In this document: piece by piece, positions 1,217 to 35,063 of the stretch
How positions within the stretch are numbered: the stretch's first letter is position 1
Layout of the letters: each line of letters starts with the position of its first letter
NCBI RefSeq assembly: GCF_007752535.1
Contig: NZ_CP036426.1
Coordinates: 4,216,001-4,280,000, forward strand
Direction: 5' to 3'
DNA: 64,000 bases
Origin: Tautonia plasticadhaerens
GTDB taxonomy: Bacteria > Planctomycetota > Planctomycetia > Isosphaerales > Isosphaeraceae
Translations under genes and position numbers: made by a program
The notes under the pieces: generated by a model
What the model was told of the DNA's origin: nothing
Database searches by the model: none
The model's input: only the letters and a program-made list of their open reading frames with translations

Positions 1217-1720
1217 TCAGCCATCGTCCTGCTCCGCTGACCGATTCCACTCCTCGAACCAGAGGCACAGGTTGTCCCGGAACTCGGGCAGCGACCCGGC
1301 GACCACCTGGAGCCGGCCGTCCTCGTGGCTCCAGCGGTAGACCGTCTCTTCCCCACTGAGCCGGTCGATCAGGTAGTAGTTCTGGTCGGCTTCGTTGCCG
1401 ATGACCAGATAATCGTCCGGCCAGGGGATGTCGTCGAAGAACGTGCCCGGCTCCTGATCTCGCACGAACCGGTTGAACTCGATGACCCGCCCGGGGTCGT
1501 CGGCGAAGTCCCACTCGGTCACCGGGTCGTGCCACGCCGGCTGCCTGTCCAGGAGCCATCGGGGATACTCGACCATGAACCGGCGGTAGGACGCCGGCAG
1601 CGGGAAGCCGAGGGCGTGTTCGATGCGGTCGAGGTCGGCTTCCGTCATCTGCTCCCACCTATCGAAGAAGCCTCGTGGATCGGCCCGCCGGGCAAGAGCC
1701 AGGGCTCGTGAGAAAGTCAT
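1217..1720 (-). CDS. SMI1/KNR4 (SUKH) family protein
   Basis: 167 residues with the SUKH-fold signature: the opening helix TEADLDRIEHALGFPLPASY (residues 26-45), a central DDYLVIGNEADQNYYLID strand pair and an acidic C-terminus with LCLWFEEWN. SUKH proteins are known as immunity proteins to secreted nuclease or deaminase toxins and as general regulatory adaptors. No toxin gene is adjacent, so the role here is open. It is convergent with the amidohydrolase gene. Confidence 0.75.
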   Translation of the reverse strand: MTFSRALALARRADPRGFFDRWEQMTEADLDRIEHALGFPLPASYRRFMVEYPRWLLDRQPAWHDPVTEWDFADDPGRVIEFNRFVRDQEPGTFFDDIPWPDDYLVIGNEADQNYYLIDRLSGEETVYRWSHEDGRLQVVAGSLPEFRDNLCLWFEEWNRSAEQDDG

Positions 1721-2840: not shown

Positions 2841-2965
2841 AAGTAGGGGCGGCGGGATCAAGGGGCCGGCGTGGGACCGAGGACCATGGTGGTCCGGCGA
2901 TGTGGTCCCGGCGGGGCCAGGTGTTGCAAACGCAACCCCTGGCGGGCTTCGTTTGGCAGGCCACG

Positions 2966-2986
2966 AACTTGTCAATCTGACAAGTT
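2966..2986. promoter_or_regulatory. 21-bp dyad upstream of the ycf35-like operon
   Basis: AACTTGTCA-ATC-TGACAAGTT is a perfect 9+9 inverted repeat. The TTGTCA at 2970-2975 could serve as a -35 box, with a weak TAGGGC 18 bp downstream, which would make this an operator over a promoter. The operon starts about 290 bp downstream. The binding protein is unknown. Confidence 0.45.
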
Positions 2987-3279
2987 GCCCGGTAGGGCTA
3001 TCGCCTTCGCCGGCCGGTCGGGGGCTTGCACGCCCGGAACACGTTCGCCGGGGCACCCCTCGGGGCGAGGGCGCCTTGGGGAATTCCCCGACCTGATCCA
3101 GCCGTCGGTTCCGAGGACGGAACAGCCGGAGATTCCCAGAGCCGAGATCGAGGCCCGCAGAGTACGCGAACCATTTCCTCCCAGAACTCATCTCGAACGA
3201 CCCTCTCCGGAGGCTAACTCGTATCCGGACACTGCCCCCCAGCGGATGACGAGCACCAGCAACCCGGGGGCTACCAACA

Positions 3280-3651
3280 GTGAGCCACATCGTCACCATC
3301 AAGACCGAGGTCCGGGACGCCGAGGCGGTCAGGGCCGCCTGCAAGCGGTTGGGCCTCGACGAGCCGGTCCAGGGGACCATCCGACTCTTCTCCGGCGAGT
3401 CCACCGGCCTGCTCATCAGGCTGCCCGGCTGGCACTACCACGCCGTCGTGGACCTCGGCACCGGTCAGATCGACTACGACAACTACGAAGGCCAGTGGGG
3501 CGAGCAGCGACACCTGGACGCCTTCCTCCAGGCGTACGCCCTGGAGAAGGCCAAGATCGAGGCCCGCAAGCTGGGACACTCCGTCCACGAGCAGCCCCTC
3601 CCCGACGGGTCCATCAAGCTGGTGATCCAGGTCGCCGGAGGTGTCTCGTGA
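3280..3651 (+). CDS. DUF1257 (Ycf35-like) protein
   Basis: 123 residues with a GTG start (MSHIVTIKTEVRDAEAVRAA). The family is DUF1257, named Ycf35 in plastids and cyanobacteria; the hallmarks are the opening SHIVTIKT strand, a central LPGWHYHAVVDL and a DNYEGQWG segment. The biochemical function is not established. The stop overlaps the GTG of the next gene by four bases, and an AAA ATPase follows, so the three are one operon. Alternative upstream starts lack this family signature. Confidence 0.85.
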   Translation: MSHIVTIKTEVRDAEAVRAACKRLGLDEPVQGTIRLFSGESTGLLIRLPGWHYHAVVDLGTGQIDYDNYEGQWGEQRHLDAFLQAYALEKAKIEARKLGHSVHEQPLPDGSIKLVIQVAGGVS

Positions 3652-3845
3652 GCAAGGTCATCGAGATCACCGTCGGCCCCAAGGGCGAGACCAGGGTCGA
3701 GACCAAGGGGTTCAGCGGGGGCGAGTGTCGCATCGCCAGCCAGTACGTCGAGCAGGCCCTCGGCCGGCGCACCGCCGAGCAGATGACCGCCGAGTTCTAC
3801 CAAGGCCAGCAGCAGGCCAGCCAGGGCCTCCGGCAGTCGGGTTAA
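3648..3845 (+). CDS. DUF2997 family protein
   Basis: 65-residue protein starting at a GTG within the GTGA overlap with the DUF1257 gene. The sequence runs SKVIEITVGPKGETRVETKG, then a conserved F-S-G-x-x-C-R segment and a helix with LGRRTAEQMTAEFY, which is the DUF2997 pattern. Function unknown. Its pairing with DUF1257 and a Ycf46-like ATPase suggests small adaptor subunits of one AAA machine. Confidence 0.8.
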   Translation: MSKVIEITVGPKGETRVETKGFSGGECRIASQYVEQALGRRTAEQMTAEFYQGQQQASQGLRQSG

Positions 3846-3918
3846 TCATCTCCGGGCCGTGGTGCCCGTCCACGGCCCCCTCTCTCCTGCTGACACCTCT
3901 GATCATTTGGAGCAAGCC

Positions 3919-5760
3919 ATGACGCTCGGCGAGCGCCTGTCGGAGTACGTCCGTGCTGCATTCAGCGGCATCTGGGTCCAGTCCAATGAACACGACGACG
4001 CCATGCTGGAGATCGCTCAAGTCGCCCGGGAGAACGACTGGACGCTGGTCTCGTGGGATATCGACCGGGGTCTGAGCATCAACGGGCAGGTCGCCAATTC
4101 GGAGATCACGCCCGCCGTTGCCGACCCGCTGTCGGCGGTCAAGGTGCTGAACTCCCTGGGTAGTCCGGGCGGTACGACCCTCTTGGTCCTCCGCAACTTC
4201 CACCGCTTCCTGGGCAGCGCCGAGATCGTCCAGGCCCTCGACTCGTCGATCAGCCGGGGCAAGCAGGCCGGTAAGGTCGTGGTTGTCCTTTCCCCCGTGG
4301 TCCAGATTCCGGTCGAACTGGAACGCCTCTTCGTCGTCCTGGAGCACGACCTGCCGGGCAGGGATCAACTCGAAACCATCGCCCGGGGGATCGCCACGGA
4401 GCCGGGGGAACTGCCGGAGGGCGACGACCTGGGCTTGGTCCTCGATGCGGCGTCGGGGCTGACGAGAGTCGAGGCTGAGAACGCTTTCTCGCTATCGCTG
4501 GTACGCCATGGCCAGATTACCCCGGAGACCCTCTGGGAGTTGAAGTCCGGCATGCTCAAGAAGTCCGGCCTGCTGACCCTTCACCGGGGCGGCGAGACCT
4601 TCGACGACCTGGGCGGCCTGGAGGCACTCAAGGCATTCACGAAGAAGGCCCTGACCGGCGGTCGCCGTGGCACGGGGGTACGCCCCCGAGGTGTCTTACT
4701 GCTGGGCGTGCCGGGCACGGGGAAGTCGGCTTTTGCGAAGGCGTTGGGGAATGAGACCGGGCGTCCGACCCTGGTCATGGATGTCGGGGCTCTGATGGGT
4801 TCGCTGGTGGGTCAAACCGAAGCCAACATCCGCCAGGCGTTGCGGATCGCCGATGCCATGGCCCCCTCGATCCTCTTCATCGACGAGATCGAGAAGGCTC
4901 TGGCGGGGGTACAGTCCAGCGGCCAGACCGACAGCGGAGTCGGTGCCCGGCTGTTCGGAACCCTGTTGTCCTGGTTGAACGACCATGAATCCGATGTCTT
5001 CGTGGTCGCCACTTCCAACGACATCTCCAAGTTGCCCCCAGAGTTCAGTCGGGCCGAGCGCTGGGACGGGACGTTCTTCATCGACCTTCCCGGCCAGATG
5101 GAACGGCTCGGCATCTGGGACCTTTACATCAACAAGTTCGGCATCAACCCCGACCAGTCGTGTCCGATGGACGAAGGCTGGACGGGAGCGGAAATACGGT
5201 CGGCGTGCCGGCTGTCGGCCCTCCTGGACGTACCCCTGGTCGAGGCGGCCCGGAACGTCGTGCCCGTCTCCGTGACGGCAATCGAGTCGGTGGAACGGCT
5301 GCGAAACTGGGCCAGCGGGATGCAAGACCACCCGGAGATCGTCCGGGATATCCTGCCCCCGGACATCTACGAGCGGATGCTTGCCGGGGAGTTCCGGCAC
5401 CCACGAGCGGGCAGCAACCAACTCTGGCAAGTCGTCTCGGTCTACGCCCTGATGGGCCGGCTGGGCGGCTCTCACGGCTATAGCGTCGTGAGCCTCTGGC
5501 CCCGGAGCCTCTCGGGGGTCCGGTACGCCGGGGGCGAGTTGGGCGCCACGTCGTTCTTCCGGCCCCGGGGCGAAATCCCGGAGATGCTCCGGGCCTTGAT
5601 GGGCCAGGGCGAGGCCGTCCACTTCGGGAGCGATCCGCCCCGGGTGGACGGGTCCTGGGTGGTCACCATGAGGGACGAGATGGAGCCGACCACGGTCGGG
5701 GACATCGTTGACGGCTGGGGGGAACGGGTCTCGGCTTCGAAAGCCGACGGCGTCGGGTAG
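3919..5760 (+). CDS. Ycf46-like AAA ATPase
   Basis: 613 residues from the ATG at 3919; an upstream GTG at 3859 would add 20 residues. The N-terminal 220 residues match the Ycf46 layout, including LLVLRNFHRFLG (88-99) and VVVLSPVVQIPVELE (121-135). The AAA module has Walker A GVPGTGKS (263-270), Walker B ILFIDEIEK (318-326) and an arginine-finger region FSRAERWDGTFF. About 200 further residues follow a helical lid, more than in typical Ycf46. It is the third gene of the Ycf35-DUF2997 operon and is probably an unfoldase or assembly ATPase; the client is unknown. Confidence 0.85.
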   Translation: MTLGERLSEYVRAAFSGIWVQSNEHDDAMLEIAQVARENDWTLVSWDIDRGLSINGQVANSEITPAVADPLSAVKVLNSLGSPGGTTLLVLRNFHRFLGSAEIVQALDSSISRGKQAGKVVVVLSPVVQIPVELERLFVVLEHDLPGRDQLETIARGIATEPGELPEGDDLGLVLDAASGLTRVEAENAFSLSLVRHGQITPETLWELKSGMLKKSGLLTLHRGGETFDDLGGLEALKAFTKKALTGGRRGTGVRPRGVLLLGVPGTGKSAFAKALGNETGRPTLVMDVGALMGSLVGQTEANIRQALRIADAMAPSILFIDEIEKALAGVQSSGQTDSGVGARLFGTLLSWLNDHESDVFVVATSNDISKLPPEFSRAERWDGTFFIDLPGQMERLGIWDLYINKFGINPDQSCPMDEGWTGAEIRSACRLSALLDVPLVEAARNVVPVSVTAIESVERLRNWASGMQDHPEIVRDILPPDIYERMLAGEFRHPRAGSNQLWQVVSVYALMGRLGGSHGYSVVSLWPRSLSGVRYAGGELGATSFFRPRGEIPEMLRALMGQGEAVHFGSDPPRVDGSWVVTMRDEMEPTTVGDIVDGWGERVSASKADGVG

Positions 5761-5792
5761 TTCAACCTCCCAGAGTCGTCGAGAAACGAACG

Positions 5793-5820
5793 AGGCCAGC
5801 CGGGTCGGTCCGGCTGGCCT
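5793..5820 (+). terminator. Hairpin after the AAA ATPase gene
   Basis: A perfect 11-bp stem, AGGCCAGCCGG, with loop GTCGGT and the exact complement, begins 33 bases after the stop codon. There is no T-tract, as is common in GC-rich genomes. Confidence 0.6.
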
Positions 5821-5890
5821 CCGGGGTCGAATCAACGGCGGGCGCCCCACCTCGATGTTCCAGCCATAATGCCCTCCAAGAGCGCGATGG

Positions 5891-5921
5891 GGCGGCCCGG
5901 CTCGCCCTGAGCCGGGCCGCC
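5891..5921 (-). terminator. Hairpin after the serine recombinase gene
   Basis: GGCGGCCCGGCTC, a five-base loop, then its exact complement (13-bp stem). It sits just past the recombinase stop, between convergent genes, and may act in both directions. Confidence 0.6.
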
Positions 5922-5927
5922 CTCACT

Positions 5928-8045
5928 CTACCGTCCCGGGCGCGGCCTCGGTCTGGTCAGTTCGGCAAGCCGCCCCTTGTTCGCCCACGTCCGCGGCAGC
6001 CGGCGGAGCTCGCGCAGCCGCCGCAGCTCGGACCCGTCGGCCCAGATCACGTGGTGGCCCTGGGCGTCGCGATGCGCCGTCAACCACCCGACCCGCACCC
6101 ATCGCCGCACCGTGTCTCGCGACACCCCCAGCCGACGCGCCAGCGACGACGGCCGGTATTCGTCGCGGCCGAGGCCGGCCGGGCTGCCGAAGGGCGTGCG
6201 GGCCAGCCCCAGGTGCCAGAGCAGCCGTTGCACCATCCCCCGCGTGAACCGCTCGGCCCGCTTCGGGGGACGGAACCCCTCGACGTTGAGCCGCTCGGCC
6301 ATCGCCGCCGGGCTGAGCCGCTCGGCGCGCCATCCCCGCAGTCGCTCGACCAGTCGGGGGTAGTCGGCCAGGAGGTCGTACCGCTTCACCGGCCGGGACA
6401 TGGCGTGCGACTCGGTCATGCCGCCGGACCAGTGGAGCGTCACATCGACCCGCTCGCTCGCCTTGTCCACGGTGACGGACACGTGGTCAATCAGGAGTCG
6501 GGCGATCCGCTGCCGCTCGGCGGGCGTCGTCGTCGTCGCCTGCCACACCGCCGGCAAGTCGCCGGCCAGCGACCGGATCGTCCGCTCGTCGTCCGGTGAG
6601 AGCCGACCGGGGGCCGACCCCCGCCACCGCTCGTGCTCGTCCTCGAGGCGCCGCTGCGCCCTCAACGCCTCCTCCCAGCGCCGCTCCAACTCGCGGCCGA
6701 CCAGGCGATTCTCCGGCTCGCAGGCCTGGTACTGCCGGGCCGCGCGGTCGGCCTCGCAGCCGGCGCGTTCGAGGCGGAGCCGCCAGTGCCGGGCCAGCTC
6801 GGACCGCTCGCGCTCGACCTCGGCCACCGCCGCCAAGCTCGCCTCCAGCGCCGCCGGCTCCACCGCCGCCAGGACCCGGCCGGCGACCAGCCCGTCGAGC
6901 GCCGGCCCGGAGAGGCTCTGGCAGATCGGCTCGGCGTGGTCGGCCGCCCCGCGGGCACAGGTGTAGCTGTACCGGCCCGTCGCCCCCGAGTACCGCACGA
7001 GCATCCGCCGGCCGCACCGCCCGCACCGCAGGAGTCCGGCCAGCAGCGAGGCCCCCTGCCGCGGCGCGCCGGGGCGGTCCCGGCGGGCCCGGTTGGCCTC
7101 CAGCCGCTCCTGGTTGTCACAGAACCGCTCCCAGGTGATGTAGGCCGGCAGCCGGTCGCGGATCAGCACCAGGCACTCCTCCGGGCGGCGGACCAGCTTG
7201 CCGGTGTCGGGCCGCCCGGGCCGCTTGCGCCGCGGGTCGACCTCCCGGTGGCCGAACCGGTAGGCACCGGCGTAGGCCGGGTGGTGCAGGACGTTCGACA
7301 GCGTCGGGCGGTTCGGCCGCCGCCACTCCAACCCGCCGCGGTTGGGGCCGTGGCGGGGTCGGATCGGGATGCGGACCCCGTGGTGGACCAGGTAGCGGAG
7401 CAGGCCGTGCAGGGTACCCTCGCGGTCGAACCGGTCGAAGATCAGCCGCACGGTCGCCTGGACCTGCTCGTCGGGGTCGATCGCCCACTCGCCCGAGGCG
7501 AGGCGTACGTAGCCCAGCGGCGGGGAGCCCATCGGCTCGCCCCGGCGGGCCTTGTTGAGCCGGCCCTGGCACATCCGCTCCTTGATGACATGAAGTTCTG
7601 CCTCGTTCAACATGCCGTGCAGGCCCAGCAGGAGCCTGTCGTTGTGGTCGGCCGGGTCGTAGACGGCGTCGGCGTCGGCCAGGAGCACGCGGAAGCGGGC
7701 GCAGAGCTCGAGCAGCTGGTGCCAGTCGCGGTTGGACCGGGCCAGCCGGCTCATCTCCAGGCCGAGGATCAGCCCGACGTTGTCGAGCGCCACCTCGGCC
7801 AGCAGCCGCTGGAACCCGGGCCGGCCCTCGATCGACTGGCCGCTCTTGCCCAGGTCGTCGTCGATCGTGGTGACGCGGTCCCGTGGCCACCCGAGGGCGA
7901 CGGCGCGGTCGGCCAGGGCGTACTGCCGGTCGGTGGACTCGCGGTGGTCGAGCACCTGCTGGGGTGTGGATTGGCGGACGTAGACGAAGGCCGCCCGGTC
8001 GAGATGCCAGGGCCGGAGCTTGGGCGAGCGGGTTGCGTCACTCAT
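5928..8045 (-). CDS. Large serine recombinase
   Basis: 705 residues. The N-terminal resolvase domain has the nucleophile region VYVRQSTPQQV (residues 21-31), DDDLGKSGQS and MSRLARSNRDW. A recombinase domain follows (LGYVRLASG, LHHPAYAGAYRFG), then a zinc ribbon (LRCGRCGRRM with a second Cys pair at YTCARG and ICQSLSG), a long Arg/Glu-rich coiled coil, and an unusual extra C-terminal helix-turn-helix region (SLARRLGVSRDTVRRWV). Such enzymes integrate, excise or invert DNA between att sites. No other phage or transposon genes are next to it. A split reductase gene abuts its upstream side, which suggests an att site there. Confidence 0.9.
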   Translation of the reverse strand: MSDATRSPKLRPWHLDRAAFVYVRQSTPQQVLDHRESTDRQYALADRAVALGWPRDRVTTIDDDLGKSGQSIEGRPGFQRLLAEVALDNVGLILGLEMSRLARSNRDWHQLLELCARFRVLLADADAVYDPADHNDRLLLGLHGMLNEAELHVIKERMCQGRLNKARRGEPMGSPPLGYVRLASGEWAIDPDEQVQATVRLIFDRFDREGTLHGLLRYLVHHGVRIPIRPRHGPNRGGLEWRRPNRPTLSNVLHHPAYAGAYRFGHREVDPRRKRPGRPDTGKLVRRPEECLVLIRDRLPAYITWERFCDNQERLEANRARRDRPGAPRQGASLLAGLLRCGRCGRRMLVRYSGATGRYSYTCARGAADHAEPICQSLSGPALDGLVAGRVLAAVEPAALEASLAAVAEVERERSELARHWRLRLERAGCEADRAARQYQACEPENRLVGRELERRWEEALRAQRRLEDEHERWRGSAPGRLSPDDERTIRSLAGDLPAVWQATTTTPAERQRIARLLIDHVSVTVDKASERVDVTLHWSGGMTESHAMSRPVKRYDLLADYPRLVERLRGWRAERLSPAAMAERLNVEGFRPPKRAERFTRGMVQRLLWHLGLARTPFGSPAGLGRDEYRPSSLARRLGVSRDTVRRWVRVGWLTAHRDAQGHHVIWADGSELRRLRELRRLPRTWANKGRLAELTRPRPRPGR

Positions 8046-8190
8046 GGCCGGCCTCCTCGCTTCGGGTGGCCGCCAGGAGCCTGGCGAGGAGTTGGCCGAG
8101 CAGGTCGCGGAGCTGTCGCTGCCGGTCGGCCGGCAGGCGGGCCCAGATCGTCGGTGCGACCGTCGGCGGTGGGCAGGGCGCCGTCGTCAG
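8038..8190 (-). CDS. Possible short ORF coupled to the recombinase
   Basis: An open stretch upstream of the recombinase ends at a TGA (8038-8040) just inside the recombinase start, so the two overlap by eight bases. Its C-terminus reads APTIWARLPADRQRQLRDLL and then a Leu/Ala/Arg-rich helix, which is protein-like. There is no ATG, GTG or TTG in frame; a CTG at 8190 would give 50 residues. It could be a leader peptide gene or the remnant of a larger one. Confidence 0.3.
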   Translation of the reverse strand: MTTAPCPPPTVAPTIWARLPADRQRQLRDLLGQLLARLLAATRSEEAGHE

Positions 8191-8363
8191 GCGCGGGGGG
8201 GAGCGTTGTGACGGGGGGCGACGGACATGCGATGTCTCCCGATGCCGAGGTCAGGTGATGTCGGCACCACGCCGCCAGCTCAAGCAGCGCGGCGGCGCTG
8301 ATCGTAACCGCCGCCGGGGGTGCTGCACCACCGGTCGCTTGAGGTGCAGTCTGCTTGGCACGT

Positions 8364-8525
8364 CTCGTAGGTCTTGCGGCCCATCAGCACGGCGTCGAAC
8401 GAGTCGAGCGACTCCCGGAACTCGGCGACCAGTTCGTCGTCCCAGGCGAAGCCGCCGAAGGAGCCGTCCTCGTGGGCGATGAAGCCGTCGAGTGTCGAGG
8501 CCACGTAGTAGACGAGCCGTCTCAC
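8364..8525 (-). pseudogene. Dihydrofolate reductase-like (RibD-C) gene, N-terminal half
   Basis: Codes for MRRLVYYVASTLDGFIAHED and on to VLMGRKTYE, the first 54 residues of a RibD-C/dihydrofolate-reductase-family protein. Homology stops after TACGAG at 8364-8369; the frame then runs on through unrelated residues to a stop at 8280. The rest of the protein, starting at the very next codon (EVGLREGKTSPYP), is found at 37231-37617 on the other strand. The gene is therefore split, with only GAG shared at both breakpoints. Confidence 0.85.
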
Positions 8526-8601
8526 GGGCGCCCTCCCCGGATCGGAGGTCCATCTGGGCGTCCCACAGGGCCGGCGAGGGCGGCATTGTGGCGGCGGTCG
8601 A

Positions 8602-9610
8602 TCATGGGCCTACCTCCGGCCCCGATTCCGCATTCGTCGACGGGGCGTCCAGGTCCTCGAACGTGATGCGTCGCTCGATCTCCCCGTGGGGCACGCCGTC
8701 GACCTCGGCATACGGATCGACGAAGAAGTTCAGCGGCGGCCCCTGCTGCGGGGGCTCCAGCGTCAGGTGCCGGCCCCGGCTGAACTCCAGCCGGTCCTCG
8801 TCGTGGTGCCCGAAGAAGTAGTCCTTGCGGGCCGGCTCCTTGGCCGCCTCGCTGGCGTCCACCGGCACCCAGCCCCGCCCCCCGACATACATCTCGGCCC
8901 AGCAGTGGTAGCCGGCGACCTCGCCCGCGCCCCGCTCCCCCGGCAGCGGCAGGCCGATGGCGAAGCGGGCGGGGATGCCGACGGACCTGGCCATGCCGAT
9001 CAGCAGGGCGTGGAAGTCGGTGCAGTTGCCCCGCCGCACGTCGCAGGCATACAGCGCATCGCCCCGGCCCCAGCCGGTGTCGCTCTTGTCGTAGGTCATC
9101 GTGCCGACGACCGCCTCGTAGATGGCCCTGGCCCGCTGCTCATCCCCCTCCAGGCCCAGGGGTCGCCTCCTCGGCGAGGCGGCGGATCGGGCCGTCCAGC
9201 GGCTCCGGGGCCAGGTAACGCCGCAACTCCCCCGGGCTCAGGGGCTCCCGTCGACCTGCGTTCTCCCGGCGGGTGGCGACGATCGTCATCGTGACGGTGA
9301 CCTCGCCCTGCGGCCGGTCGAGTCGGACGTGGAGGGACCGGTTGCCGGAGCCCGGCTCCCTCCCGAGGGTCACGGGGGCCGGGGCGTCGATCGTCAGGCG
9401 GTGGATCGTCTGGTTGGCGTCGTCCTGCGGGACGGGGAGCCAGAGGTCCAGGGCCTCGCTGTCCTCGGGGATGTCCCGGACGGTCGCCCGATAGGTCAAT
9501 GCGAAGGTCCGTTGGCGTGGGGGCTCGTCGGCGGCCCGGCCCGCCTGCGGCAGGGCGAGGAGCAGGATCGCCGGCAGCGCTGCGAGTCGAATCGGTCGTG
9601 GTCGGCCCAT
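8602..9610 (-). pseudogene. Secreted transglutaminase-like protein, frameshifted
   Basis: The start at 9610 gives a signal peptide (IRLAALPAILLLALPQAGRA) and an N-terminal beta domain. The frame breaks near 9151-9160 (EEATPG, then stop). The correct continuation LEGDEQRARAIYEAVVGTM lies one base out and leads into the catalytic domain at 9099-8602: DVRRGNCTDFHALL (catalytic Cys), AGYHCWAEMYV (His) and WVPVDASEA (Asp). All three catalytic residues are present, so a single indel in a G/C-rich run separates signal and catalytic parts. It may be a sequencing error. Transglutaminase-like domains of this kind are cysteine peptidases or acyltransferases outside the cytoplasm. Confidence 0.7.
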
Positions 9611-21339: not shown

Positions 21340-21640
21340 CGAGGACAAGAGCCATCGAGATGATGTCGGGCCCCAGGATCGTGACCGAACCGACCGCCTG
21401 GAGTCGGTGGCGGCGACCGGGCAGCTTGTCGCCGCCGAGATCGACGACCTCCACCGCTTCGCCGGCCTGCTTGGCGTCCCGACGCCCGGGGACTGGCCCC
21501 CGCCGCTCAACGACGCCGACTCGATGGCCTTCACCCCGGGACCGGCGCGCCGAGAGGCCGGATCAGGCGGGCTGGTGGCGCTGGTACCTGCTGCTGCGCC
21601 CCGATGCCGGCGGCCCGGCGCTGGTCGGCAACTGACTGAT
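21340..21640 (+). pseudogene. GNAT acetyltransferase remnant
   Basis: One frame reads RLESVAATGQLVAAEIDDLH and then LGVPTPGDWPPPLNDADSMAF; another, after about 21540, reads ERPDQAGWWRWYLLLRPDAG and stops after GGPALVGN. Together these match the N-terminal half of GNAT proteins that open in this way, with the acetyl-CoA-binding half missing. The rest of 21199-21773 shows nothing else I can support. Confidence 0.4.
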
Positions 21641-21773
21641 TCTGGCTGACACGGGCCGGCGCGTCCTCAGCCCCCCCTTGGGGCCTTCCACCAGAACCTC
21701 GGACGATCCCCGGGTATCATCAAGGACGGCGATCTCCGGCCGGCACCGCTCCTCTCGATGGCCTCCGTGAACA

Positions 21774-22712
21774 ATGGATGAATCCCATCCCCGCCCCGGC
21801 TCCGATGAACTCCCGCACCTCGGGACGTTCGCCAGGGTCGCCGAGCGGGGCAGCTTCACCGCCGCCGCGCTCGACCTCGGCATCACCCAGGCGGCCGTCA
21901 GCCAGCGGATCGCCCTCCTCGAAAAGGGGCTGCGCGTCTCGCTGTTCGACCGCCGGGCCGGCAGGATCGCCCTGACCGAGGCGGGACACCGGCTCTATGA
22001 CTACGCCCGCCGTATCCTCGACCTCCACGAGCAGGCCCGCAAGGACATCGGCGGCCTCCATCCGCCCATCTCGGGCGACCTGCCGATCGCCGCAAGCTCG
22101 GTCCCCGGCGAATGCTACCTGCCGGCCCTGCTGTCCTCCTTCCGGGAGGCGTATCCCCGGGTCCATGTCCGGGCCTCGGCGGGCGACAGCGGCTCGGTCG
22201 TCCGGGATGTCGTGACGGGGCGGGCCACGCTCGGCCTGGTGGGGAAGGAGGCCGGGACGCCCGCCCTCGAATCCCGGCCCATCGGCACCGACCTCCTGGT
22301 GCTCATCGTGCCCCCGGGGCACGCCTGGGCCTCCCGGAAGGCGATCTCCCTCAAGGCGCTCGCCATCGAGCCGCTCGTCATCCGGGAGCCGGGATCGGGC
22401 TCCCGCTGCGCCCTGGAGGCGGGCCTGGGGCGGGCCGGTGCCTCGCTCGCCGGGATGAACATCGCCCTGGAACTGGGCAGCAACTCGGCCATCCGGGATG
22501 CGGTCCGTCGCCGGCTCGGCGTGGCCTTCCTCTCCCGCCCAGCCGTGCAGCCGGAACTCGACTCGGGCGCGTTGCGGGCGGTCGGGGTCCGTGGCCTCGA
22601 CCTCGCACGCCACCTCTACGTGATCCACCACGGCCGTCGTCCGCTCTCGCCGGCCGCCTCCGTCTTCCTGCACTTCCTCACGGCCCACCCCCTCGATCCC
22701 GATCGGCGTTGA
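21774..22712 (+). CDS. LysR family transcriptional regulator
   Basis: 312 residues. The N-terminal winged helix (LGTFARVAERGSFTAAALDL, ITQAAVSQRIALLEKGL) is typical LysR, followed by a linker helix and a periplasmic-binding-protein-like effector domain (GDLPIAASSVPGECYLPALL, PGHAWASRKAISL). The effector domain resembles regulators of sulphur or selenium metabolism. No co-regulated operon is obvious, but a sulphur methyltransferase lies 1 kb downstream. Confidence 0.85.
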   Translation: MDESHPRPGSDELPHLGTFARVAERGSFTAAALDLGITQAAVSQRIALLEKGLRVSLFDRRAGRIALTEAGHRLYDYARRILDLHEQARKDIGGLHPPISGDLPIAASSVPGECYLPALLSSFREAYPRVHVRASAGDSGSVVRDVVTGRATLGLVGKEAGTPALESRPIGTDLLVLIVPPGHAWASRKAISLKALAIEPLVIREPGSGSRCALEAGLGRAGASLAGMNIALELGSNSAIRDAVRRRLGVAFLSRPAVQPELDSGALRAVGVRGLDLARHLYVIHHGRRPLSPAASVFLHFLTAHPLDPDRR

Positions 22713-22863
22713 GCCCCATTAGCGGGGCTTATGACGCGTCTGCGAGCGATCACGAGAAGTTCGGTGGCCCCGCCCGGCGGGCCTCGTCCATCATGGGCCT
22801 CGTCGTGCCGCCCCCTCCCGGGGCGAGCAGTCGGAGCCCCGCCGGCGCCCGGGACGGATCGGG

Positions 22864-23025
22864 ATGAAGTCCAACATCTGGGAGGGGCTCGCCCTCGCAA
22901 TCGCCGCCTCGATGCTCGTGGGCTCGCTCTACCTGAGCGTCGGGCTGGGCCTCAAGGCATGCCCGCTCTGCCTCTACGAGCGGACGTTCGTCATGGGCGT
23001 GCTCGGCGTCGGGCTCGCGTCCTGA
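22864..23025 (+). pseudogene. DsbB-like fragment
   Basis: 53 residues: one hydrophobic segment (LALAIAASMLVGSLYLSVGL), then KACPLCLYERTFVMGVLGVG and a stop. CPLCxYxR is the quinone-adjacent redox motif of DsbB-type disulphide-forming proteins, which continue for about 100 more residues. Only the first membrane span and the motif remain. Confidence 0.5.
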
Positions 23026-23164
23026 CTCCCCGCCAAAGTCGGGGGCCTCGGGCTTCCTGGCCCTGCCAGTGGCTACGGCATGCAAGGCGGGGACGGGAAG
23101 CATCACAGGGGCATGAAGGACTGGCGGGCTCGATCGCCTCGATCTCCCCTGCTGGACAATCGCC

Positions 23165-23785
23165 ATGACCCGTCAGGGCCGCAAAGGGCATTGGGAGCAG
23201 GTCTATTCGACCAGGGGCGAGACGGGCGTTAGCTGGTACCAGAGCGAACCGGCCCTCTCGCTCGATCTCATCCGGTCCGTCGCCCCCGCCGCGCATGGGC
23301 GGATCATCGACGTGGGGGGCGGGGCCTCGGTCCTGGTCGATCGGCTCCTCGACCTCGGCTTCGAGACGGTCGCCGTGCTCGACATCTCCAGGACCGCCCT
23401 GGAGACGGCGAGAGCGCGGCTGGGGCGCCGCTCGGGGGCCGTCCGTTGGATCGAGGCCGACGTGACCGAGGTCAGGGACATCGGCACCTTCGACATCTGG
23501 CATGACCGGGCCGTGTTCCACTTCCTGACCGAGGCGGCGGATCGGGCGAGGTATGCCGAGTTGGCGCGTCGGACGGTCCTCCCAGGGGGGCATCTCATCA
23601 TCGCCACCTTCGCCGACGACGGCCCGAGGCGGTGCAGCGACCTCGATGTCTGCCGCTACAACCCGGGGTCGCTGGCCTCAGAGTTCGGCAATGGCTTCTC
23701 GCTCGTCGGGAGTGCCGGGGAGACGCACACGACCCCCTGGGGCTCCCAGCAGGCGTTCACCTACGGGGTCTTCAGGCGGCAATGA
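23165..23785 (+). CDS. Class I SAM-dependent methyltransferase
   Basis: 206 residues. SAM-binding motif I is IIDVGGGASVLVDRLL, with motif II AVLDIS, an acidic loop RWIEADVTEV and DIWHDRAVFHFL. The aromatic N-terminus (HWEQVYSTRGETGVSWYQ) is typical of a broad methyltransferase-11/25 group of thiol or small-molecule enzymes. The stop overlaps the start of the MddA-like gene (ATGA), so both are co-translated. Confidence 0.8.
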   Translation: MTRQGRKGHWEQVYSTRGETGVSWYQSEPALSLDLIRSVAPAAHGRIIDVGGGASVLVDRLLDLGFETVAVLDISRTALETARARLGRRSGAVRWIEADVTEVRDIGTFDIWHDRAVFHFLTEAADRARYAELARRTVLPGGHLIIATFADDGPRRCSDLDVCRYNPGSLASEFGNGFSLVGSAGETHTTPWGSQQAFTYGVFRRQ

Positions 23786-24522
23786 GCAGAATCCTGGCCC
23801 TGGCCTACGGCGTGGCGAGCTATCTCGCCTTCCTCGCCTCGTTGCTGTACGCGGTCGGCTTCGTCGGCGACCTCCTCGTCCCGAGGTCGGTCGATGCGGG
23901 GAGGCCGAGGAGCCCGATGGGCGTTGCGGTGCCCGTCGATCTCCTGCTGCTCGGCCTCTTCGCCGTCCCGCATAGCGTGATGGCCCGGCCGTGGTTCAAG
24001 CGGCGGTGGACCCGCTTCGTCCCGCCGCCGGTCGAGCGGAGCACCTATGTCCTCACGAGCAGCCTGCTGCTGGGCCTCCTCTTCTGGCAATGGCGGCCGA
24101 TCCCGATCGTCATCTGGCACATCGACAACCCGGTCGGTCGATGGCTGATGGGTGCGATCTTCTGGGCCGGCTGGGCGCTCGTGCTCGTGTCCACCTTCCT
24201 GATCGACCACTTCGACCTGTTCGGGCTGCGTCAGGTCTACCTCCACGCCACCGGTCGGCCGTACACCCCGATCGAATTCAAGACGCCCGGCCCCTATCGC
24301 TACGTCCGTCACCCGCTCATGACGGGCTTCCTGCTGGCCTTCTGGGCGACCCCGAGGATGACCGCCGGGCACCTGCTGTTCGCCGGGGCAACGACCGTCT
24401 ACATCCTCATCGCCCTGCGGTTCGAGGAGCGGTATTTGGTCGGGTTCCATGGGGAGCGCTATGAGGCATACCGGGAGCAGGCGGGCATGCTGCTGCCGTC
24501 CCTGAAGTCCCGAAAGCAGTAG
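23782..24522 (+). CDS. mddA: MddA-like methanethiol S-methyltransferase
   Basis: 246-residue integral membrane protein, isoprenylcysteine-methyltransferase/NnrU-like fold with about five hydrophobic segments. Signatures are MSRILALAYGVASYLAFLAS, VPHSVMARPWFKRRW, FDLFGLRQVYLHATG, and the SAM-binding YRYVRHPLMTGFLLAFW and EERYLVGFHGERYEAYRE. MddA converts methanethiol to dimethyl sulphide. It is translationally coupled to the soluble methyltransferase upstream. Related NnrU-like proteins of unknown role are an alternative. Confidence 0.75.
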   Translation: MSRILALAYGVASYLAFLASLLYAVGFVGDLLVPRSVDAGRPRSPMGVAVPVDLLLLGLFAVPHSVMARPWFKRRWTRFVPPPVERSTYVLTSSLLLGLLFWQWRPIPIVIWHIDNPVGRWLMGAIFWAGWALVLVSTFLIDHFDLFGLRQVYLHATGRPYTPIEFKTPGPYRYVRHPLMTGFLLAFWATPRMTAGHLLFAGATTVYILIALRFEERYLVGFHGERYEAYREQAGMLLPSLKSRKQ

Positions 24523-25698: not shown

Positions 25699-26247
25699 TC
25701 AGGCGGGGTTGAGCGGGTCGAAGGTCGGCAGGAGGTGCCTCCAGGCCAATCCCTTGACGATGTAGGAGACCATCTGCTGGCTGACGCCATAGGTCGCTCC
25801 GAGTCGGGTCATCGAGGTCCCCTCCTCGTGCCGCCGACGAATCTCCAGGACCTCGGCCTCCTTCAGCTTCGATCGCGCCTCCTCCCCGAACTTCCTCCTG
25901 CCGTGGCGCAGGATATCGTCCGAGTTCGCCTGCGGCGTATCCCATCGGAGGTTGGCGACCCGATTATTCCCCGGGTCACCATCATTGTGGCAGCAAACGG
26001 TACCGGGCGGTCGGGGTCCGACGAACGATTCCAGGACGAGTTGGTGGACGAGGCGGCGTTTCTTCTGGCCGCCGACATGCAGGTTGACGCCGAGGTAGCC
26101 GCACCGATTCTTGATGAGTTTCAGCGGGAGCCACGCATCTCCCATGCCCCCCCGTCGCCCCTGGCGGTTCCAGCAGGATTCGACGACGCCATCCCGGCTG
26201 ACGCGATACCCCGGGAAACCTTCGATCTGACTGTAGTGATTTTCCAT
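25699..26247 (-). CDS. NUMOD4/HNH endonuclease
   Basis: 182 residues. It opens with a NUMOD4-like segment (IEGFPGYRVSRDGVVESCW), then the HNH core LVHQLVLESFVGPRPPGTVC, CHNDGDPGNNRVANLRWDTP, and a C-terminal helix-turn-helix (TSMTRLGATYGVSQQMVSYI). This is the build of homing-type or phage-borne HNH nucleases. No intron or phage gene is adjacent, so it is an orphan mobile nuclease. Confidence 0.85.
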   Translation of the reverse strand: MENHYSQIEGFPGYRVSRDGVVESCWNRQGRRGGMGDAWLPLKLIKNRCGYLGVNLHVGGQKKRRLVHQLVLESFVGPRPPGTVCCHNDGDPGNNRVANLRWDTPQANSDDILRHGRRKFGEEARSKLKEAEVLEIRRRHEEGTSMTRLGATYGVSQQMVSYIVKGLAWRHLLPTFDPLNPA

Positions 26248-26299
26248 GCCCCTATGTAGGGGGCTACAAGTGATTTTACCTCGCCTTCCTCAAATTCGA

Positions 26300-30435: not shown

Positions 30436-30789
30436 TCAATCGCATCCCCTCCCGGATCGTGCCACCGGCCTGTCGAGGGTGCGCCCGAGCCTCATCCAGG
30501 CCACCGACTTGATCGAGGTGATCGGGATGCGGCGTTCGACGACGCCGGCATGATCCCGGATGCCCAGGTGATCCGCCCCGATCTCGGTGACCTCGTACCC
30601 GGCGGGCTGGCCGCCCTCGAACACCGTCACCTCGTAGGCGGTCCCCAGGTCCTTGACGCCGACGGCCTGCCCGACCTCCAGGCCGGCGAAGAGACCATCC
30701 GGCTCCCCCTGGGGACGTGCCCCGAGGAGCATCATGCCGGCGACGGCAAGCAGAGCCGCGCCCACCAGTCTCCGGTTCGATTCCTTCAT
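30436..30789 (-). CDS. Hypothetical protein with signal or anchor segment
   Basis: 117 residues from the ATG at 30789. The N-terminus MKESNRRLVGAALLAVAGMM is a signal peptide or membrane anchor. The rest is a small beta domain with YEVTVFEGGQPAGYEVTEIG and ERRIPITSIKSVAWMRL. Last gene of the minus-strand small-gene run. No family recognised. Confidence 0.55.
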   Translation of the reverse strand: MKESNRRLVGAALLAVAGMMLLGARPQGEPDGLFAGLEVGQAVGVKDLGTAYEVTVFEGGQPAGYEVTEIGADHLGIRDHAGVVERRIPITSIKSVAWMRLGRTLDRPVARSGRGCD

Positions 30790-30818
30790 CGAGAATCCTC
30801 TCCCGACCGTACCCGGCA

Positions 30819-31088
30819 TCATGCTCCGAGGACGATCCCGTTCAAATGAGGTTCGAGGTGGTGGGACGCTTGCTCGGGGAACCGGTCCAGGCGCCGCAAC
30901 ACTTCGGCCTTGGATACGACGACGTGGCCGACGTGGTGTGGCCCCGCCCGGTAGCGGACGAAGACGAGGCCGGCCTGCTTGATGATTCGCCGAAGCTCCC
31001 GGGTCGTCACCAGGCGCCTGACCTGCCAGGGGCCGGTAAACGGCAAGATCGTGGCCCCTGGTTCCTGCTCCGACTCGACTGTCGCCAT
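30819..31088 (-). CDS. Hypothetical protein
   Basis: 89 residues: FTGPWQVRRLVTTRELRRII, then AGLVFVRYRAGPHHVGHVVV and a C-terminal helix. Starts three bases after the stop of the preceding gene, so the two are one transcript. No family recognised; soluble. Confidence 0.55.
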   Translation of the reverse strand: MATVESEQEPGATILPFTGPWQVRRLVTTRELRRIIKQAGLVFVRYRAGPHHVGHVVVSKAEVLRRLDRFPEQASHHLEPHLNGIVLGA

Positions 31089-31091
31089 GGA

Positions 31092-31634
31092 TCATTCTCC
31101 CTCGGGGTTGCTGACCAAGAAGTCCCCGACCCGGTACTGGGACCAGTTGCCGACCACGACCACCGCCTCGCTCTCCGGGCCGATATCCAGGCGGCCGAGC
31201 ACGTCGACCAGCATCGCCTCCCAACCCGGTGGGTCGCCCCAGAGCATGACCACCCGGCAACCGCAGAGCGTGCCGGCTCTGCCGAAGAGGTTCTCCCTCT
31301 TGGCAAGCTGCCGGATGGCGTACCAGTCCCAGTTCTCTCGCTTCTCGCCCGTGGGGGCGTGCTGACCCCGGTCATCCAGGGCGAACACGTCGCCAATCGT
31401 CACGACCCGCCGGTACACCTCCTCGGCTTCGGGGCCGAAGAACGCCCCGAGCATCCCAGCCGAGTTGGTCATCTGCTCGTGGCCGACATGTCCAGGCTGT
31501 ACGAACCAGCGTTTGCCGTCGGGGTCGGCATACTTGGAGTAGATGAAGGCGAGTGATCCGACCTGGCCCCTGATCTCGTCCGGTCCTCGGTTGATCAATC
31601 GGGGTTCGAAGACCTGGACTTCCTCCGGCGGCAT
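31092..31634 (-). CDS. Hypothetical protein
   Basis: 180 residues from MPPEEVQVFEPRLINRGPDE. Mixed alpha/beta, with KRENWDWYAIRQLAKRENLF and a C-terminal EAVVVVGNWSQYRVGDFLVS. It follows the XRE-type regulator by about 20 bases on the same strand. I do not recognise a domain; a toxin-antitoxin-like or regulator-partner role is possible but unproven. Confidence 0.55.
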   Translation of the reverse strand: MPPEEVQVFEPRLINRGPDEIRGQVGSLAFIYSKYADPDGKRWFVQPGHVGHEQMTNSAGMLGAFFGPEAEEVYRRVVTIGDVFALDDRGQHAPTGEKRENWDWYAIRQLAKRENLFGRAGTLCGCRVVMLWGDPPGWEAMLVDVLGRLDIGPESEAVVVVGNWSQYRVGDFLVSNPEGE

Positions 31635-31653
31635 CGCAGGTTGTCCTCCTCGG

Positions 31654-32196
31654 TCAATTCCCCGGCTCGTCGATCGGTCGCAGGACCTCGCCACCATCAA
31701 AGTTGAGTTGACACCTCCGGCTGCCGAACACGGCGTACGGCATGCAGGCCACGTCGGGCGTTGCCTCCCGTCGCTCATAGGCTTGGCCCCTGGCGTCGAA
31801 GTAGACCGACAGGCGCCGGGACAGGGCCAGAGAGACCATCAGGCCCCGCTCTCGGGCAACCCGGCTGGCGTAGGCTTCCGCCGCCTCGGGTTCGAGGTCG
31901 TCTTCAGGCAACTCGACCCTCTGGTACGCACAAGCCGTCCACCGGAGGACGAGATAGGGCCGGATCGGCTCGTCGGCCCAGGCCAGCCAATCCCGGTAGT
32001 CCTCGGCGGCAAGCCGGCGAACCTCGTCTGGGCTGACCTCCAACGCCTCGGCGAGCTTGCCGAGCAGGTCAGGGGCAACCTTGCCGCCGGCCTCGAATGC
32101 CAGGATTCGGTTGCTGCCCCGGCTGAGGTTCTTGTAACCGACCAACCGGGCCAGTTGCCCGGTGGTCAGGTTCCGCTCCTGTCGCTTAGGAGCCAT
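31654..32196 (-). CDS. XRE-like helix-turn-helix regulator
   Basis: 180 residues from MAPKRQERNLTTGQLARLVG. The N-terminal helix-turn-helix has GQLARLVGYKNLSRGSNRIL and LLGKLAEALEVSPDEVRRLA. The remaining 110 residues are an unknown alpha/beta domain ending QLNFDGGEVLRPIDEPGN. The start lies nine bases from the left end of the second ISAzo13 element, so its native promoter has probably been displaced. Confidence 0.65.
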   Translation of the reverse strand: MAPKRQERNLTTGQLARLVGYKNLSRGSNRILAFEAGGKVAPDLLGKLAEALEVSPDEVRRLAAEDYRDWLAWADEPIRPYLVLRWTACAYQRVELPEDDLEPEAAEAYASRVARERGLMVSLALSRRLSVYFDARGQAYERREATPDVACMPYAVFGSRRCQLNFDGGEVLRPIDEPGN

Positions 32197-32204
32197 CCAA
32201 GAAT

Positions 32205-33559: not shown

Positions 33560-33607
33560 GATCCTGGATGGCCCCTTACGCCTGAAGAAGTCGCCCAGAT
33601 GGCTCAT
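33560..33607 (-). pseudogene. Start of a gene cut off by the ISAzo13 element
   Basis: An ATG at 33607 overlaps the stop of the zinc-ribbon gene (ATGA) and opens MSHLGDFFRRKGPSRI before running into the IS end. The coupling suggests it was the next gene of the operon; no remainder is obvious beyond the IS. Confidence 0.35.
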
Positions 33608-35047: not shown

Positions 35048-35063
35048 CGGAGCACATCCCTGC

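Follow-up and report, generated by a model that had tools for sequence, protein, structure and literature searches.

A truncated DUF1257/DUF2997/AAA ATPase operon in Tautonia plasticadhaerens, most likely a copy of a mobile module

Gene content of the locus

The window (the whole stretch of 64,000 nucleotides of Tautonia plasticadhaerens DNA that was analysed) contains three co-directional genes, which code for a DUF1257 protein, a DUF2997 protein and an AAA ATPase (Table 1). They had been described in the first-pass annotation as coupled by a GTGA overlap and a short gap within 3280-5760, and this is indeed the case. The stop codon of the DUF1257 gene (TGA, 3649-3651) overlaps the GTG start codon of the DUF2997 gene at 3648, and a gap of 73 nt separates the end of the latter from the ATG of the AAA gene (3919). 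The promoter presumably lies within 2864-3279. The same genome has a second copy of the operon (copy 2).

Table 1. Features at the locus, with positions counted from the first nucleotide of the window
Feature	Position	Strand	Basis
Upstream region common to copy 2 (2864-2958 and from 3064 on)	2864-3279	+	blastn, 85-86% identity to copy 2 (L036)
DUF1257 (Ycf35-family) protein, 123 aa, GTG start	3280-3651	+	Pfam and aligned relatives
DUF2997 protein, 65 aa, GTG start	3648-3845	+	Pfam DUF2997
AAA ATPase gene, whole (core and fused tail)	3919-5760	+	613 aa
AAA ATPase core, residues 1-467	3919-5319	+	Pfam AAA, phrog_8638, Cdc48/p97 similarity, conservation
In-frame fused tail, residues 468-613 and stop	5320-5760	+	Copy-2 homology ends at 5319
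Mobile element, about 2.5 kb, 90 bp past the AAA stop	5851-8367	.	13 near-identical places in the genome, including that in the window
Serine recombinase ORF inside the mobile element	5928-8045	-	Pfam Resolvase/Recombinase

The DUF2997 protein matches its Pfam model with 53.4 bits (cut-off 24.1). The DUF1257 protein is under the Pfam DUF1257 cut-off (18.8 bits versus 22.2, E 0.0019). The model is matched by 20 of its 30 aligned relatives at E <= 0.01 (best 3.8e-6), and its plasmid relatives are annotated as DUF1257. The AlphaFold model of this protein (pLDDT 89) shows the order strand-helix-four strands-helix-two strands. It has no clear relative in the PDB (best Foldseek E 0.05; best VIA Z 6.3), and a profile search of PDB sequences with DUF1257 did not return one either; this is not evidence of a new fold. 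An Rfam scan of L039, L036 and L047 gave no match.

The AAA protein

The core consists of an N-terminal region without a Walker A motif and a single AAA domain (residues 259-389), which scores 93.4 bits with Pfam AAA (cut-off 21.2; 2e-26). In the PHROGs scan, phrog_8638 matches residues 5-467 (3.6e-77). The best solved relatives are Cdc48/p97 (1.6e-41 over residues 251-436), and the protein has the motifs of classical AAA proteins, namely GVPGTGKS (Walker A), LFIDE (Walker B) and ATSND (sensor 1). In the alignment of relatives, PG.GKS and the DE pair of Walker B are kept in at least 95% of 48 core rows. Stricter Walker A and Walker B patterns fit only about half of the rows (25 and 24, respectively) because flanking residues vary. 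No family named Ycf46 is among the matches in the Pfam, NCBIfam, PADLOC and PHROGs scans. Among the relatives listed, those from cyanobacterial plasmids have 28-33% identity over three quarters of the length.

The AAA domain is also matched by PADLOC IetA (E 1e-18) and NCBIfam IteA (7e-16), as if it belonged to a toxin-antitoxin AAA protein of the IetAS/SgiAT type. We consider this extremely improbable: the NCBIfam IteA score is 58.4 bits against a cut-off of 510, Pfam found no subtilase or subtilisin-like partner in the first 8 kb of the window, of which eight ORFs were scanned, and the constant partners are DUF1257 and DUF2997 proteins.

Distribution of the core

The reading frames ycf35 and ycf46 are orphans from plastids and cyanobacteria. 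The trio had been introduced as mainly of this kind and as turning up in a planctomycete, a view that is not borne out: the core occurs in phages, on plasmids of five phyla and in many planctomycetes, the trio being present in Blastopirellula marina (L197) as well. DUF2997 was found in 44 of 294 genomes of the phylum, with up to 7 copies per genome.

A six-frame profile survey covered 80 genome loci (the best 80 of 140 by DUF1257 similarity), and each gene was counted against the loci with enough sequence to test it. At these loci, which had been fetched with DUF1257, the co-occurrence of the three families is conserved, with DUF2997 adjoining DUF1257 in 70 of 70 and the AAA gene coming next in 47 of 48. 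The 29 viral loci contain the AAA gene (29), DUF2997 (27), S82 (24), a DUF3150-like gene (23) and a terminase homologue (14). The proposal of a conserved AAA machine with two small, near-obligate neighbours is thus borne out; a lack of co-occurrence, named in the first-pass annotation as the result that would refute it, was not observed. Rhizobium phage L338C and Aeromonas phage HJ05 have AAA, DUF1257, DUF2997 and S82, while Tunturiibacter phage Tunturi_3 has AAA, DUF2997 and S82 together with a DUF3150-like gene. In two phage regions (L088, L091), which carry no labels for DUF1257 or DUF2997, the profile search nevertheless finds DUF1257, DUF2997 and S82; in two others without such labels (L089, L090), it finds AAA only. 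In the stretches examined, a relative of the AAA protein is encoded without the two small genes on a Treponema plasmid, in Mycobacterium phage Firecracker and in satellite phage Javan368. A tblastn search of 50,697 phage records with a viral-contig DUF1257 query gave no match.

On plasmids from Paenibacillus, Paenarthrobacter and Treponema, Fer4_12/radical-SAM proteins are encoded near the AAA gene. This would fit a role in metal- or redox-enzyme maturation, with the AAA protein and the two small proteins inserting or repairing Fe-S or radical enzymes and the planctomycete copies being a derived branch. Such a role would also suit the cyanobacterial cluster of ycf35, DUF2997 and ferredoxin fed7 (as described in a section of PMC4284462) and the lower extracellular carbonic anhydrase activity reported for a mutant in ycf46, the gene of a conserved protein (Jiang 2015, as cited in a passage of PMC7496141). 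Nonetheless, we judge it improbable. Among the surveyed loci of planctomycetes and viruses, none has a relative of these plasmids' three 4Fe-4S proteins at E <= 1e-3, and the accessory genes of these loci are of the clamp, ligase and ubiquitin type.

The longer operon and its exchangeable cassettes

The trio is not the complete unit that it was initially taken for. In most relatives, several more genes follow that are missing in the window. These comprise a DUF3150-like gene and two small genes; some relatives also have a cassette, of which two exchangeable types occur. Among genome loci with enough sequence, the DUF3150-like gene is present in 25 of 33 and S82 in 24 of 31. The 25 long loci (at least 7.5 kb) have either a complete ubiquitin-like cassette (9), a clamp gene (5) or neither (11, one of them with a lone ThiF); none has both. 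Since 11 of the 25 are cassette-free and 8 of 33 loci are without the DUF3150-like gene, the extra parts are not essential. The DUF3150-like protein P320 matches an annotated DUF3150 protein of Synechococcus phage MinM2 (E 2e-7); the Pfam scan gave no DUF3150 match. Two further proteins of the operon were read by eye as TOPRIM-like and lipoprotein-like, and for the former, PDB profile and Pfam searches returned nothing.

The ubiquitin-like cassette codes for a ubiquitin-like protein (Ubl), an E2/RING-like protein, a JAB protein and an E1-like protein. ThiF was found by Pfam in the three E1-like proteins scanned (4e-29, 2e-24 and 2e-22). The Ubl is of the ThiS type, with scores over the cut-off in one locus (29.8 bits, L038) and under it in another (18.9 bits, L122). 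Its glycine near the end is part of an I[ED]GA motif in 12 of 13 sequences, the remaining one being truncated. In the E2-like protein, HPHV and a following cysteine are invariant (11/11). Many E2, UEV and RWD domains can be aligned to residues 96-220 of its model (pTM 0.44), with Z 6-7 and Foldseek E values of 0.13 or higher. The fused "RING" is assigned from its cysteine pattern and from weak PDB profile matches (best 0.00067), which include zinc domains other than RING as well. All five residues of the JAMM motif (E, HxH, S, D) are invariant in 11 of 11 JAB proteins. The best profile match of JAB is Rpn11 (Caldiarchaeum and eukaryotic; E 0.0018), with Prok-JAB under the cut-off. The matching entries 6fju and 6fjv are taken by us to be the Caldiarchaeum protein, which fits the abstract of PMC6043591. 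The clamp protein resembles DNA polymerase III beta (E 9e-9 to 7rzm, next best 0.09; phrog_947, 8e-8) and has no match in Pfam.

On the AAA tree, the cassette type switches at least 5 times; this count rests on a quick method without a shuffle control and on 19 labelled rows out of 54 (12 ubiquitin-like, 7 clamp). L241 was labelled as ubiquitin-like from ThiS/ThiF fragments, and L175, which has a clamp gene upstream, was left unlabelled.

Recombination genes and the question of defence

The operon is associated with recombination genes. In 19 of 62 loci, Tni or serine recombinase genes are located on the same strand up to 3 kb upstream; several of the 62 are near copies of each other. The seeds for this search came from L185, L246, L226, L232, L122 and the window, picked because such genes had been seen upstream; without the five seed-giving loci, the count is 14 of 57. 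Controls within these loci were negative (0 of 37 and 0 of 23), and planctomycete DNA from elsewhere contained 2 such ORFs in 249 kb, taken as 83 stretches of 3 kb. A subset of the upstream recombination genes was identified by Pfam.

A location behind TniQ or recombinases, the patchy spread and the swapping of cassettes on the AAA tree would all be consistent with defence against phages or other elements. The core would then sense an invader, the ubiquitin-like, clamp or other cassette would be a variable effector, and the window would hold a decayed defence locus. Ubiquitin-like cassettes do serve in bacterial defence. We nevertheless consider this explanation unlikely, though less so than enzyme maturation, since phages themselves bear the core. 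Moreover, PADLOC has no family for DUF1257 or DUF2997 and matches the ATPase only via AAA-domain models. When 89 of 108 neighbour proteins (a set without recombination genes and without some of the longest sequences) were compared with PADLOC without a control, one model had two members and the rest had one each among the 25 of 50 models listed. Many of these single-member matches are to the same PD-T4-6 models, which we take to be kinases.

Truncation and fused tail of the window copy

The window copy is the 5' part of the longer operon, truncated and fused. Its homology to copy 2 ends at nt 5319 (blastn), and the downstream genes of relatives (DUF3150-like, S82, S72) are missing. The single DUF3150-like gene of the genome is located at copy 2. 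No cassette gene was found in the first 20 kb of the window, and the E2/RING protein has no match in the genome.

The extra C-terminal region, first estimated at about 200 residues and regarded as part of the AAA machine, has 146 residues (468-613) and is a private fusion: the 15 relatives listed end about 20-35 residues past residue 467. No significant match to the tail, and no source for it, was found elsewhere in the same genome, in 247 other genomes of the class, on plasmids or in viral contigs. An origin from the adjacent serine recombinase element was considered and rejected, as the element starts at about 5851, past the stop codon at 5760. By its sequence, the tail is an in-frame fusion unique to this copy, with a coding-like GC content at the three codon positions of the AAA frame (0.69/0.49/0.90).

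The loss of the downstream genes and a tail without relatives could indicate that the window copy is a truncated, dying pseudo-operon that ends in junk sequence and no longer functions. Shortened AAA genes also occur in relatives (L179, L183), and two window genes are somewhat further from the congeneric relative than their counterparts in copy 2 (dN 0.185 versus 0.140 for DUF1257; 0.178 versus 0.161 for DUF2997). However, all three frames are open, the tail has its coding-like base composition, and dN/dS against this relative is 0.25 for DUF1257, 0.28 for DUF2997 and 0.11 for the AAA core. The core has evolved no faster than that of copy 2 (dN 0.087 versus 0.098) and, to judge from these ratios, is under purifying selection, as in copy 2 (dN/dS 0.13). 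A dying pseudo-operon is more plausible to us than a role in defence, but we remain doubtful. With DUF3150-like and S82 proteins supplied by copy 2, the window copy may still be functional.

Interpretation

Most likely, the window set is a truncated copy of a mobile AAA module, in which a remodelling motor of the Cdc48-like kind has two small, near-obligate partners and is carried by mobile DNA. As a full explanation, we favor an operon of mobile elements and phages with a core of DUF1257, DUF2997 and a classical-clade, Cdc48-like AAA protein, the window holding its 5' part with the remodelling motor; our confidence in this is about even. The AAA protein would form a ring-shaped motor in which each subunit has a single working ATPase module, stacked on the N-terminal region that is free of Walker A. 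For the DUF1257 and DUF2997 proteins, we infer an adaptor role: these putative small partners may dock on the motor or load its substrate. The DUF3150-like protein, a predicted coiled-coil protein, and the small S82 protein would complete the complex. In the life cycle of the element or phage, the motor may serve to extract or remodel DNA-bound protein complexes. Its substrate would be marked by the end cassette, either by a tag (the Ubl, conjugated by E1 and E2/RING and trimmed by JAB) or by a clamp. In the window, the downstream genes were lost, and other coding sequence became joined to the AAA gene.

We count several observations against this explanation. On the three plasmids, the AAA gene has a radical-SAM-type 4Fe-4S protein encoded nearby, which does not suggest DNA remodelling. 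The others are the AAA relatives without small genes (Firecracker, Javan368 and the Treponema plasmid), the cassette-free loci and the loci without a DUF3150-like gene. The limited fit of the stricter Walker patterns, the near copies among the 62 loci, the origin of most recombinase seeds from genes noticed upstream and the choice of the 80 loci by DUF1257 similarity also count as reservations.

It is tempting to speculate, as a long shot, that planctomycete mobile elements carry a complete primitive tag-and-extract system, made up of a ubiquitin-like modifier, E1, E2/RING, JAB and a Cdc48-like motor with Ycf35-type and DUF2997 adaptors. The motor would clear DNA of tagged proteins, be they in transpososomes, in replication complexes or those of an invader. 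Sister operons would use a private sliding clamp instead of the tag as substrate mark, and plastid Ycf35/Ycf46 would be what remains of this motor after domestication.

The operon unites the DUF1257 (Ycf35) family and DUF2997 with an AAA motor, which would be Ycf46 provided that the naming in the first-pass annotation holds. The occurrence of the trio in planctomycetes, phages and plasmids provides an experimental handle, as the proteins lend themselves to co-expression and to assays as a single complex. Phages, plasmids and jumping genes carry the full gene set, which in related bacteria sometimes comes with its own ubiquitin-like tagging kit or DNA sliding clamp. It is unusual that a ubiquitin-like conjugation cassette and a sliding clamp replace each other behind one motor, and this makes the question of what the motor pulls on directly testable.

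Comparison with known systems

No description of the operon was found among openly licensed papers by title or start of the abstract. Prokaryotic RING/E2 systems were reportedly surveyed in 2011.

Cyanobacterial and plastid Ycf35 and DUF2997 belong to the same small families as the proteins of the window trio. The fed7 cluster, as described in the section of PMC4284462 concerned, has no AAA gene, whereas all three genes adjoin in the window; unlike in that cluster, relatives of the trio are followed by the DUF3150-like, S82 and cassette genes. The MoxR ATPase-DUF3150-VWA cluster of phage MinM2 is similar in that an AAA-type protein adjoins a DUF3150 protein. It differs in having a MoxR ATPase and a VWA partner (as annotated), while a classical-clade AAA protein with DUF1257 and DUF2997 is found here.

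Cdc48/p97 provides the closest solved structures to the AAA domain. The window protein, however, has one recognised AAA domain, and its link to ubiquitin consists of the gene neighbourhood in relatives only.

Prokaryotic ubiquitin-like operons include types 6a-6e of Iyer 2006 (a section of PMC1779556) and the Caldiarchaeum Ub-E1-E2-srfp-Rpn11 operon (PMC5654768). As in these, Ubl, E2-like, JAB and E1 genes occur together in relatives of the window operon, and the Ubl has residues beyond its glycine, likewise found in Caldiarchaeum pro-ubiquitin as far as described there. In the cassette of the relatives, the E2-like domain is fused to a cysteine-rich, RING-like region, while E1 and JAB are unfused. 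Unlike the operons of Iyer 2006, for which the section of PMC1779556 names no AAA partner, this cassette is linked to an AAA/DUF1257/DUF2997 core.

Gene content and conservation

The first-pass annotation had proposed a tightly coupled operon, and three co-directional genes joined by a GTGA overlap and a short gap are indeed present at window 3280-5760 (Table). The DUF1257 (Ycf35-type) family call holds because relatives match PF06868, at E <= 0.01 in 20 of 30 aligned DUF1257-type proteins. A SUKH/SMI1-KNR4 family protein is encoded nearby; members of this family are frequently immunity proteins of polymorphic toxins.

Table. Coordinates of the features discussed.
Feature	Location	Remarks
DUF1257 gene	window 3280-3651	co-directional with DUF2997 and AAA; Pfam just under cut-off
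DUF2997 gene	window 3648-3845	co-directional with DUF1257 and AAA; Pfam over cut-off
AAA ATPase gene, 613 aa	window 3919-5760	co-directional with DUF1257 and DUF2997; Pfam over cut-off
SUKH/SMI1-KNR4 gene	window 1217-1720 (-)	Pfam
Serine-recombinase element	window 5851-8367	2.5 kb
Stretches matching DNA beside copy 2	window 21608-24520, 25706-26263, 30485-36786, 62043-63107	G000:C1 6,718-6,734 kb
Extra genes between or after AAA and P320	L226 11352-13055, L197 11781-13473, L178 6134-7596, L245 12543-14496	
Beta-helix gene between P320 and S82	L113 11639-12688	hexapeptide-repeat-like
Group II introns in AAA gene	L103 ~5799-8178, L106 ~6977-9428, L221 ~5722-8147	planctomycete; each above the Rfam RF00029 threshold
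Group I introns in AAA gene	L115 9538-10320, L116 9540-10322	two closely related large viral contigs; Rfam RF00028
Split DUF1257 genes	L039 1113-4450, L109 1946-5274, L102 4675-5415	one shared site, about residue 90

A DUF1257 alignment was compared with 84,980 species genomes. Of the 140 places confirmed in this way, the best 80, almost all with a planctomycete label, were retained. The genome-neighbourhood check bore out co-occurrence: among those of the best 80 with enough sequence, DUF1257 is followed by DUF2997 in 70/70 loci and by AAA in 47/48, while P320, a DUF3150-like gene, is present in 25/33 and the small gene S82 in 24/31. In other planctomycetes, DUF1257, DUF2997, AAA, P320, S82 and a further small gene (S72) come in this order. 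Some of these operons also have a lipoprotein-like gene before DUF1257, some a short gene of coiled-coil or TOPRIM appearance between DUF2997 and AAA, and some an end cassette after S72. P320 significantly matches an annotated phage DUF3150 protein; Pfam does not call DUF3150 in it. At four loci, extra genes were recognized by eye: one of about 100 aa, one for a membrane protein and, on the opposite strand, one for a small controller-like HTH regulator. Planctomycete-type operons in four genome records labelled Nealsonbacteria, Kuenenia, Variovorax and Emcibacter (L177, L179, L223, L227) are probably due to misbinned contigs or transfers.

The truncated copy and its fused tail

A second copy (copy 2) is sited at C1:6,711-6,714 kb of the T. 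plasticadhaerens genome and is 86% identical to window 3064-5319. Behind its AAA gene are a 321-aa P320 gene, the only one in this genome, and S82. The window copy has lost all genes behind AAA and by itself is merely a truncated operon member. Four stretches of the window (Table) match the DNA beside copy 2 piecewise, at 73-94% identity and for the most part in inverted orientation; both copies sit in rearranged duplicated segments.

Identity to copy 2 ceases at window 5319, the end of AAA codon 467. The AAA proteins of copy 2 and the other relatives inspected end about 20-35 residues past this point, most of them with an RCLSAxxPGI...N-type terminus. The frame of the window copy instead continues for 146 residues past the end of homology. 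An extra C-terminal region of about 200 residues had been noted earlier; the extension exists, at this shorter length, and is private to the window copy. The tail is coding-like, because its codon-position GC in exactly this frame (0.69/0.49/0.90; AAA core 0.66/0.45/0.84) resembles that of a real gene. It has no Pfam match, and no significant relative turned up elsewhere in its own genome, in 247 further genomes of the class, or in plasmids or viral contigs. From the sequence, we interpret it as a gene fusion specific to the window copy. The serine-recombinase element, which has 13 near-identical places in the genome and was apparently recently active, is excluded as the source, since it begins 90 bp beyond the AAA stop.

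Compared with a congeneric relative, dN is 0.087 (window) and 0.098 (copy 2) for the AAA core, 0.185 and 0.140 for DUF1257, and 0.178 and 0.161 for DUF2997. The window AAA core thus evolves as slowly as that of copy 2, and its two small partners somewhat faster. Because the core is slow despite the lost downstream genes, we infer that the window copy was functional until recently; copy 2 could still supply it with P320 and S82. Between the copies, dS is 0.18 for DUF1257 and 0.22 for DUF2997, far below that of the AAA core (0.55), a difference that suggests gene conversion or recombination between them.

Exchangeable end cassettes

Among the best 80 of 140 places, 25 loci extend at least 7.5 kb past DUF1257: nine have a complete Ub cassette (Ubl, E2/RING, JAB, E1), five a sliding clamp, none both and 11 neither, with a lone ThiF gene in one of these 11. 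In L213, the Ub cassette is upstream of DUF1257, not downstream. The Ubl is ThiS-like (Pfam over cut-off in one sequence, below in another), and 12/13 sequences, all but a truncated one, have I[ED]GA close to the end. In the E2/RING protein, an E2-like domain fused to a Cys-rich region, HPHV and a subsequent cysteine are invariant (11/11); its modelled E2 part aligns, at Z 6-7, with numerous E2, UEV and RWD domains, with Foldseek E 0.13 or worse. All JAMM residues of the JAB protein are invariant (11/11), its best profile match being Rpn11, and the E1 is ThiF-type. Of 248 genomes in the class, 36 encode E2/RING, none of them from T. plasticadhaerens' own family. In the seven E2/RING-bearing genomes common to the DUF2997 and E2/RING surveys, 10 of 14 E2/RING genes are within 6 kb of a same-strand DUF2997 gene. 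The clamp is similar to DNA polymerase III beta. A WGR-domain DNA ligase is downstream in 3 of the best 80 of 140 loci by motif, one being confirmed. In a tree built by a quick method from 54 AAA proteins, cassette type switches at least five times among 19 labelled rows, so the cassettes have been swapped.

Mobility, introns and insertions

The 62 loci scanned comprised 61 from genomes plus the viral contig L122, each with at least 3.5 kb of upstream sequence. TniB/TniQ, some with TniA, occur in seven and serine recombinases in 12; all lie on the same strand and terminate no more than 3 kb before DUF1257. The same scan gave 0/37 loci at 6-9 kb upstream and 0/23 at 5.9-8.9 kb downstream; other planctomycete DNA, as a control, had 2 recombination ORFs in 249 kb. 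Seeds were genes seen upstream in five of the 62 loci and the window; minus these five, 14/57 remain. Pfam confirms the Tni assignments for L185 and L220 and the serine-recombinase assignments for L246, L226, L232 and L122, where the recombinase is one gene more distant. The count does not represent independent events because several loci are close relatives (e.g. L233/L237).

Core genes of the operon also lie on 29 viral contigs, the longest of 226 kb (AAA 29, DUF2997 27, S82 24, P320 23, terminase homologue 14). In L122, which may be a misfiled chromosome piece, the entire Ub-type operon lies downstream of recombinases. Of the phage isolates, Rhizobium phage L338C and Aeromonas phage HJ05 encode AAA, DUF1257, DUF2997 and S82; phage Tunturi_3 encodes AAA, DUF2997, S82 and P320; Mycobacterium phage Firecracker and satellite phage Javan368 have AAA alone in the stretch examined. 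L113 and its viral relatives have a beta-helix gene of which none was seen among the planctomycete operons inspected. AAA accompanied by DUF1257 and/or DUF2997 also occurs on plasmids from Nitrospirota, Aquificota, Cyanobacteriota, Bacillota and Actinomycetota. On three plasmids, a radical-SAM-type 4Fe-4S protein is encoded near AAA; neither DUF1257 nor DUF2997 was found on the one from Treponema, and no relatives of these 4Fe-4S proteins were found in the planctomycete or viral loci surveyed.

The group II introns contain RT-like ORFs (by eye) and are inserted near Walker A (L106) or the sensor-1 region (L103, L221). Where DUF1257 is split, the L039 and L109 inserts each contain, besides a full DUF1257 copy, a serine recombinase on the opposite strand; in L102, the 5' part precedes a complete copy and there is no recombinase. 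These insertions resemble an element that has DUF1257 as its attachment site and carries a DUF1257 gene of its own.

Proposed function and comparison with known systems

The observed basis for a mechanism is which genes travel together. The AAA protein would be a ring motor; the nearest solved structures of its AAA domain are Cdc48/p97. PG.GKS and a DE pair are kept in at least 95% of 48 core rows, and stricter Walker A and Walker B-type patterns in 25/48 and 24/48. Walker A is absent from the N-terminal 200 residues, which, by eye, may be a degenerate AAA module. The near-obligate DUF1257 and DUF2997 proteins are most plausibly subunits or substrate adaptors of this motor. Of the conserved AAA machine with two small adaptors that was first suggested, the near-constant partnership stands, the operon of relatives is longer, and the adaptor or subunit role is putative. 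The cassettes suggest, at the level of gene content, that the motor substrate is either tagged or on DNA.

The weight of the finding lies in the family-wide operon more than in the window copy. Its component families are known; as far as our searches of openly licensed literature go, the arrangement is undescribed. The operon is similar in logic to phage MoxR-DUF3150-VWA clusters and to MoxR-vWA conflict systems (PMC7159879), likewise a chaperone core with swappable parts. The Ub cassette of its relatives resembles the archaeal Ub operon (PMC5654768).
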